DNA from: Bacillota bacterium
GTDB lineage: Bacteria; Bacillota; Dehalobacteriia; UBA4068; UBA4997
Direction: 5' to 3'
Assembly: GCA_017397935.1 (NCBI GenBank)
Contig: JAFQHN010000017.1
Span: 1 to 64,000, forward strand
DNA: 64,000 nucleotides
Program-made: the position numbers and the translations under genes
Shown: positions 21,767 through 23,547 of the stretch, one piece after another
How positions within the stretch are numbered: position 1 is the stretch's first letter
Layout of the letters: the number at the start of each line of letters is the position of its first letter
The notes under the pieces: generated by a model
Told to the model about the DNA's origin: nothing
What the model saw: only the letters and a program-made list of their open reading frames with translations
The model's database searches: none

Positions 21767-21807
21767 TCCATTTAGCCGCTTATCCCATACACCCGGCCAC
21801 AAATAAA

Positions 21808-21842
21808 AGCAAGGGCAGCCATAATCAGCCACCCTTGCCCAA
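21808..21842 (-). terminator. Terminator after the microprotein gene
   Basis: Minus-strand GGCAAGGG / CCCTTGC arms with an inner GGC stem, followed by TTTTATTTG. Confidence 0.75.
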
Positions 21843-21865: not shown

Positions 21866-22051
21866 TTAATCCCGATTGCGGCATACCAGCCAAGCCACCA
21901 GACCAATCACCGACACCAATACCACGCCGCCCACAACGAACAGCATCATCGGAAAACTGCCGCCCAGAAAACCGGTCACAAAAACACTTGTCGGCCCGTC
22001 AGCCCCGCCGATAACCCCAACGGCTGCTGCATTATTCCCCAATACACTCAT
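21866..22051 (-). CDS. 61-residue membrane microprotein with Na+-decarboxylase beta-subunit motif
   Basis: ATG 22051 lies 7 bases after AGGAGA, and a terminator follows, so this is likely a real gene. The N-terminal half contains AVGVIGGADGPTSVFVTGFLGG, equivalent to the IGGADGPT loop that carries a sodium-site aspartate in the beta subunits of oxaloacetate, methylmalonyl-CoA and glutaconyl-CoA decarboxylases. The C-terminal half is one strong membrane helix (MMLFVVGGVVLVSVIGLVAWLV) ending in RNRD. A real beta subunit is about 370-430 residues; no remnant of the rest is nearby. It sits 32 bases downstream of guaB. Function unknown. Confidence 0.75.
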   Translation of the reverse strand: MSVLGNNAAAVGVIGGADGPTSVFVTGFLGGSFPMMLFVVGGVVLVSVIGLVAWLVCRNRD

Positions 22052-22083
22052 CACAAATTCTCCTCAACATCAATCAACAAACA

Positions 22084-23547
<1,464 letters not shown>

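Follow-up and report, generated by a model that had tools for sequence, protein, structure and literature searches.

A module corresponding to the Na+-site hairpin of decarboxylase beta subunits in a 61-residue microprotein and in unrelated host proteins

The beta subunit of Na+-pumping decarboxylases comprises ten helices and two hairpins, and its Na+ site includes Asp203 at the tip of hairpin H1, whose replacement (D203A) abolished Na+ binding, while Ser382 in the second hairpin and Asn412 also matter for Na+ binding, as reported in PMC7274780. Here, we analyzed a gene for a 61-residue microprotein (MSVLGNNAAAVGVIGGADGPTSVFVTGFLGGSFPMMLFVVGGVVLVSVIGLVAWLVCRNRD) in a 64,000-nucleotide stretch of DNA from a Bacillota bacterium, referred to as the window. 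The sequence AVGVIGGADGPTSVFV in the microprotein is that of the hairpin tip with the Na+-site residue Asp203 in decarboxylase beta subunits, and residues 8-26 of the microprotein equal the H1 tip of the beta subunit family (PF03977/TIGR01109; structures 6iva and 6iww). The likeness extends to about 26 of 349 profile positions, whereas the second hairpin, the core and the scaffold domain of the beta subunit have no counterpart. The microprotein also resembles the OadG-type gamma subunits in being small, with one helix, a short cytoplasmic tail and a putative N-out orientation; however, these subunits are encoded together with the other decarboxylase subunits, whereas the microprotein gene lies behind guaB and the pump genes of the same genome lie on another contig (C24).

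The microprotein gene and its module

The original prediction gave no strand for this gene, which we place on the minus strand (Table 1); the plus-strand reading of the same interval was dropped, as its open frame is without meaning. Initiation at a GTG in frame with the ATG and one codon before it (22054) would instead give 62 residues. The ribosome-binding site, the terminator and the guaB context described in that prediction were all recovered, and so were the motif and the single membrane helix of the encoded protein. The upstream gene is presumably guaB, a name taken from the prediction and from our reading of the sequence rather than from a family search. Since a promoter-like site was detected upstream of guaB, and none was found on the minus strand between guaB and the microprotein frame, the two genes are likely to share one transcript.

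Table 1. Features of the microprotein locus in the window
Feature	Position	Strand	Basis or remark
Promoter-like site upstream of guaB	23619-23591	-	
guaB (IMP dehydrogenase, presumed)	22084..23544	-	ends 32 nt upstream of the microprotein gene
Ribosome-binding site GAGGAG	22060..22065	-	read from the sequence; 8 nt 5' of the ATG
Microprotein gene, 61 codons	21866..22051	-	ATG at 22051, stop at 21866-21868; guaB-linked homologues in G001, G006 and G007
Module AAAVGVIGGADGPTSVFVT, residues 8-26	21974..22030	-	partial Pfam and NCBIfam matches; edges from the 40-host profile
Asp18 codon, equivalent of Asp203 (Na+ site) in the Salmonella beta subunit	21998..22000	-	alignment
Predicted transmembrane helix, about residues 32-56	21884..21958	-	hydropathy; followed by a CRNRD tail
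Intrinsic terminator-like hairpin, 15 pairs, T-rich tail	21807..21840	-	fold z -3.84

The Pfam OAD_beta model (PF03977) aligned residues 6-31 of the microprotein with profile positions 110-135 of 349 at 26 bits, below the cut-off of 31.6 bits for this family, and the NCBIfam model (TIGR01109) likewise gave a partial match, while no match to an OadG family model was obtained in Pfam or NCBIfam at E values up to 1. The match lies far above chance, with reversed-pattern controls yielding 0 matches in the genomes scanned. By alignment, the module of the microprotein is hairpin H1 of the beta subunit, with the IGGADGPT of its tip and the equivalent of Asp203 both present, and it is the sole part of the sequence that could be recognized; the ten helices, the two hairpins, Ser382 and Asn412 of the beta subunit are otherwise missing from these 61 residues with their one predicted helix. 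The AF2 model places a helix at residues 32-60 (pLDDT 80-97 over residues 31-60) and folds the module as a beta-hairpin at low confidence (pLDDT about 58-62), too weak to build on. Because the CRNRD tail follows the helix, the positive-inside rule predicts an N-out/C-in topology, in which the module would lie outside with the helix as its anchor.

Within the genus, guaB was found in eight of nine genomes, the window's own included. An intact microprotein gene follows it in four of them (G000, G001, G006 and G007), is interrupted by a one-base frameshift within the motif in G008, and is absent behind guaB in G002, G003 and G004. The G001 copy reads GGADGQT, with a Pro-to-Gln change. The closest pair, G006 and G007, differs by 13 synonymous and 3 nonsynonymous changes (44.7 and 108.3 sites, respectively), and the more distant pair, G006 and G001, by 20.5 and 25.5 changes (43.5 and 109.5 sites). 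The microprotein gene is therefore under purifying selection in the genus and has been lost in some species. The original prediction had held that a lack of homologues in relatives, or nonsynonymous drift, would point to a decaying fragment; instead, homologues occur in three species of the same genus, and the closest pair is strongly constrained.

Two side observations concern the same locus. The frameshift in G008 (L218, just after guaB) falls inside the GGADGP codons and is either a real lesion or an assembly error. In addition, G001, G006, G007 and G008 have another single-helix frame, about 33 codons long and ending in YAVMRHKDD or YAIMKQGND, immediately after the microprotein gene (about 3214-3315 in L206, and at the same place in L207, L208 and L209); no such frame is present in the window.

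Distribution and conservation of the module outside the pump

The microprotein was used to scan 84,980 species genomes, which yielded 54 loci, the majority of the matches being in unrelated proteins. Overall, once OadB copies had been set aside by two regular expressions, the 18-19-residue module was found outside the pump in 114 distinct hosts, a mixture of exact-motif searches, PgsA orthologues and soluble-family orthologues with different biases. With the module masked, these hosts fell into 55 homology clusters, of which the guaB-linked microproteins account for four, so that the true number of clusters is lower. Isolates are among the carriers (L050, L075 and Vescimonas fastidiosa), and the module is therefore no metagenome artefact. 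Pfam names among 20 tested hosts include CDP-OH_P_transf (PgsA), Glycos_transf_4 (MraY), G3P_acyltransf (PlsY), HAAS, HTH_3, Peptidase_M56, Peripla_BP_2, SBP_bac_1, PGA_cap, Cu_amine_oxidN1, Big_14 and DUF6449. In these hosts the module adjoins the Pfam domain, with the exception of the M56 peptidase (L040), where it occupies a loop within the match.

According to a simple hydropathy rule for helices, the module lies between two helices in 47 of the 114 hosts, after at least one helix or a signal peptide in 16, just after a lipobox cysteine in 15 and at the N-terminus ahead of a helix in another 15, while 21 hosts have no helix. A helix or signal was thus predicted in 93 hosts, including four members of the soluble cluster (L057, L065, L283 and L285) that we count as false positives. 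The position is membrane-bound or exported in all but 3 of the 55 clusters; these three soluble clusters are a 22-member family, the pair L147/L256, and L034. At the small end of the range are two lipoproteins of 47 and 44 residues (L180 2954-3097 and L183 2930-3064), which consist of a lipobox signal and the module with hardly anything else. Inspection by eye of ten small carriers showed no shared gene neighbours.

Two other accounts of the spread were set aside. Phage cargo was rejected: exact matching of GVIGGADGPT and of GIIGGADGPT to a viral collection found a single contig in each case, and both contain relatives of bacterial hosts (the HAAS-type L219 and the soluble-family L220). A ribosome arrest peptide, the other possibility considered, does not fit, as the residues after the Pro are also conserved.

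Alignment of 40 hosts gave the consensus AASVGVIGGADGPT[AS][IV]FV[ST], with conservation confined to positions -7 to +11 around GGADGPT and information dropping sharply outside; these hosts were hand-picked, several from one family, and their exact core partly reflects how they were found. Most copies came from exact-motif searching, which overstates conservation, a bias avoided by tests on PgsA, the soluble family and the guaB-linked genes. PgsA orthologues were sought with the first 140 residues of the protein, which matched in 83 of 87 genomes; in the 30 orthologues retrieved, GGADGPT was exact in 7, variant in 4 and missing in 19. The soluble family, whose members have about 510 residues with the module near the C-terminus (L179 1609-3156; L222 1151-2683, WP_118599744.1; L400 1285-2823), was fetched by the first 447 residues, and 18 distinct members reach the C-terminus. 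Here, GGADGP was present in 11 and variant in 3, so that a recognizable module is kept in 14, while 4 have none. In the 14 keepers the module is the best-conserved 11-residue window, with an identity of 0.90 against 0.51 overall, a figure that leaves out the four members without it (L402, L405, L407 and L415); a preceding version of this test covered 11 of 16 aligned rows, each of which had the module, and was repeated on the 14 of 18. No Pfam match was obtained for L179, and the predicted fold of L400 matched no PDB entry at E values at or below 0.001.

In the AF2 model of the soluble host, the module loop is predicted to be disordered (pLDDT about 32-36). Strong conservation despite apparent disorder is characteristic of linear motifs. 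In general, conservation of the module is sharp and short and falls in disordered or loop regions of unrelated hosts, as is typical of such motifs. The losses among relatives show that the module is not essential. The Asp was retained in every variant copy listed from PgsA, the guaB-linked genes and the soluble family, which are too few for significance.

The census of one order included a control motif from the same pump. The H1 pattern occurs in 264 of its 394 genomes, and a second conserved OadB motif, HAMGPNV, in 288 of the same genomes. Counted by eye, at least two copies of HAMGPNV were present in 4 of the 394 (G342, G589, G687 and G754), against 58 of the 394 with at least two copies of the H1 module among the matches listed. 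The near lack of surplus HAMGPNV copies indicates that it is H1 that has spread, and not pieces of OadB generally. Among the matches listed for the order, 149 places (one further match, that of L044, was left out) divide into 117 OadB and 32 not OadB. A looser pattern, counted over OadB and other proteins together, matches 131 of 299 genomes in the phylum to which the window belongs.

Possible roles: docking module, pump regulator or captured fragment

The explanation that we favor, though tentatively, is that the module serves as a short linear docking or address module, mainly outside the membrane, with the window's protein as the smallest kind of carrier. The module would then be a tag for which the various carriers share one binding partner, located at the outer membrane face or close to it, and the microprotein, as a minimal carrier, would present the tag outside, anchored by the helix. 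The partner might conceivably belong to, or sit near, the decarboxylase complex, in line with the PF03977 matches and the OadG-like hosts described below, although four module genomes gave no such match over the cut-off. This role suits a module that is short and sharply bounded, lies in loops and linkers, is outside in nearly all clusters, and is constrained wherever this could be tested. Speaking against a tag is the frequent absence or decay of the module in the PgsA and soluble families, as well as its loss, frameshift or altered motif behind guaB in five genomes of the genus (G001-G004 and G008), and the three soluble clusters speak against a purely outside role. A broader version, possible and somewhat more doubtful, envisages an address system of anaerobic Bacillota, in which the Na+-site hairpin peptide would sit on some fifty unrelated sets of proteins and be read by one common outer-face reader. 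The peptide would have been copied in evolution from the hairpin of the decarboxylase pump; membrane proteins, lipoproteins and secreted proteins, together with a small number of soluble proteins, would carry it, and the guaB-linked and similar microproteins would be its minimal carriers.

The main rival is a regulator or accessory of the pump, in which the module would mimic H1, insert beside the beta subunit and compete with or tune it, the microprotein being a stripped gamma-like subunit; we regard this as unlikely. In its favor, of 39 genomes selected by their GVIGGADGP motif, 35 have a PF03977 match over the cut-off, a few of these matches being contig-end fragments (that of G370 covers only 46 positions). 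The window's own genome also encodes the pump: the full-length beta subunit that the original prediction proposed to look for is a 402-codon open frame at C24, accompanied by gamma-like and biotin-carrier genes, and the Asp of its motif aligns with Asp203 of 6iva (residue numbered by hand). The layout of the microprotein, putatively N-out with one helix, is OadG-like, and in three loci (L061, L178 and L253) a protein judged by eye to be OadG-like, with no Pfam OadG match, has the module at its N-terminus and is encoded next to a divergent beta paralogue with IGAADGPT; in one further locus (L077) a module host lies about 0.9 kb from oadB. Against this role, the hosts include PgsA, MraY, PlsY, M56 peptidases, binding proteins and soluble proteins, four module genomes (G334, G341, G354 and G359) gave no PF03977 match over the cut-off, and the microprotein gene stands behind guaB, outside the pump operon. 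The 'competitor subunit' of the original prediction may apply but is too narrow, the module being present in PgsA, MraY, PlsY, lipoproteins and other proteins foreign to the pump. Next comes neutral capture, in which H1 fragments of oadB would repeatedly have entered loops and linkers as tolerated filler and then decayed; this, too, seems improbable to us. It agrees with the position of the module outside the annotated host domains or in their variable loops, with its decay or loss among PgsA relatives, and with an amino acid match to the OadB of the same genome that is slightly closer than in shuffled pairs (13.55 of 23, against 13.10; p 0.004, relatedness not controlled). However, codon identity is no higher to the genome's own oadB (z 5.8) than to the genome with the closest codon usage (z 6.1), although some of these control genomes are themselves near relatives, and recent copying from the own oadB accordingly has no support beyond codon usage as measured with this imperfect control. 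Capture is likewise hard to reconcile with a module that, where kept, surpasses every other window of a 500-residue soluble protein in conservation, with the constraint between G006 and G007, and with the spread of H1 and not HAMGPNV.

The two remaining readings come from the original prediction. A decaying relic of a full-length beta-subunit gene is very improbable: the frameshift in G008, the Pro-to-Gln change in G001 and the missing genes in G002-G004 would be expected of decay, but the place behind guaB is kept in the genus, the G006-G007 pair is constrained, the gene has its own ribosome site and terminator, and nothing else of a beta subunit is left in it while a full-length copy exists elsewhere. 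Least probable of all is a stand-alone small ion-binding or ion-conducting protein. The equivalent of Asp203 is present, and its retention in the few variant copies listed (too few for significance) would suit such a role; on the other hand, Ser382 of the second hairpin and Asn412, both shown to matter for Na+ binding in PMC7274780, are absent from the 61 residues, and many module hosts are enzymes or lipoproteins. The 'new small ion-handling protein' therefore finds no support, and a docking motif fits better than an ion site because the module lacks the remaining parts of the Na+ site.

Several observations on pump genes are recorded here in their own right. In the window's genome, two near-identical gamma-like genes (L002 16-168 and 187-585) stand in tandem before the biotin-carrier gene and oadB. 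A weak third match in this genome (C16) was dismissed as chance, as it lies inside a frame judged by eye to be CrcB-like. The divergent beta paralogues (L061 827-1930, L178 1667-2794 and L253 2699-1887) read IGAADGPT instead of IGGADGPT, and NVSG instead of NVAG. The non-pump protein L045 2386-3402 reaches 35.4 bits to OAD_beta, over the cut-off on the module alone, and non-pump places in G331, G345 and G368 do the same.

Relation to known peptide elements

Promiscuous short tags are already a known kind of thing. As far as we looked, no description exists of an ion-site hairpin that has spread into some fifty unrelated clusters of hosts: a search of open-licence PMC full texts for GGADGPT found no paper, and related searches of these texts, including ADGPT (judged by the titles listed), gave nothing relevant. 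If the module is a true tag, it would reveal an unseen interaction system over gut Clostridia and their relatives, for which a carrier list and a bait peptide are ready. Even if it is no tag, unrelated proteins have come to carry the Na+-site hairpin of a textbook pump. For annotation, non-pump hosts that exceed the Pfam pump-subunit cut-off on the peptide alone may be misnamed.

Rickettsia palindromic elements are DNA repeats that occur in frame in many unrelated proteins, and the module resembles them as one peptide found in frame within many unrelated proteins. Unlike these elements, the module stretches differ at third codon positions and give one to three matches per genome with a match, rather than the near-identical DNA in many copies per genome that marks selfish DNA. 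PEP-CTERM, GlyGly-CTERM and LPXTG are C-terminal tripartite sorting or anchoring signals, which the module resembles in that a single short motif recurs, often beside a helix, on many exported proteins that are unrelated to one another. Their order of motif, helix and basic tail at the C-terminus is matched in form by the tiny N-out hosts and not by the lipoproteins, inter-helix loops or mature N-termini; whereas the known signals are C-terminal, the module stands at N-termini, after lipoboxes and in inter-helix loops.
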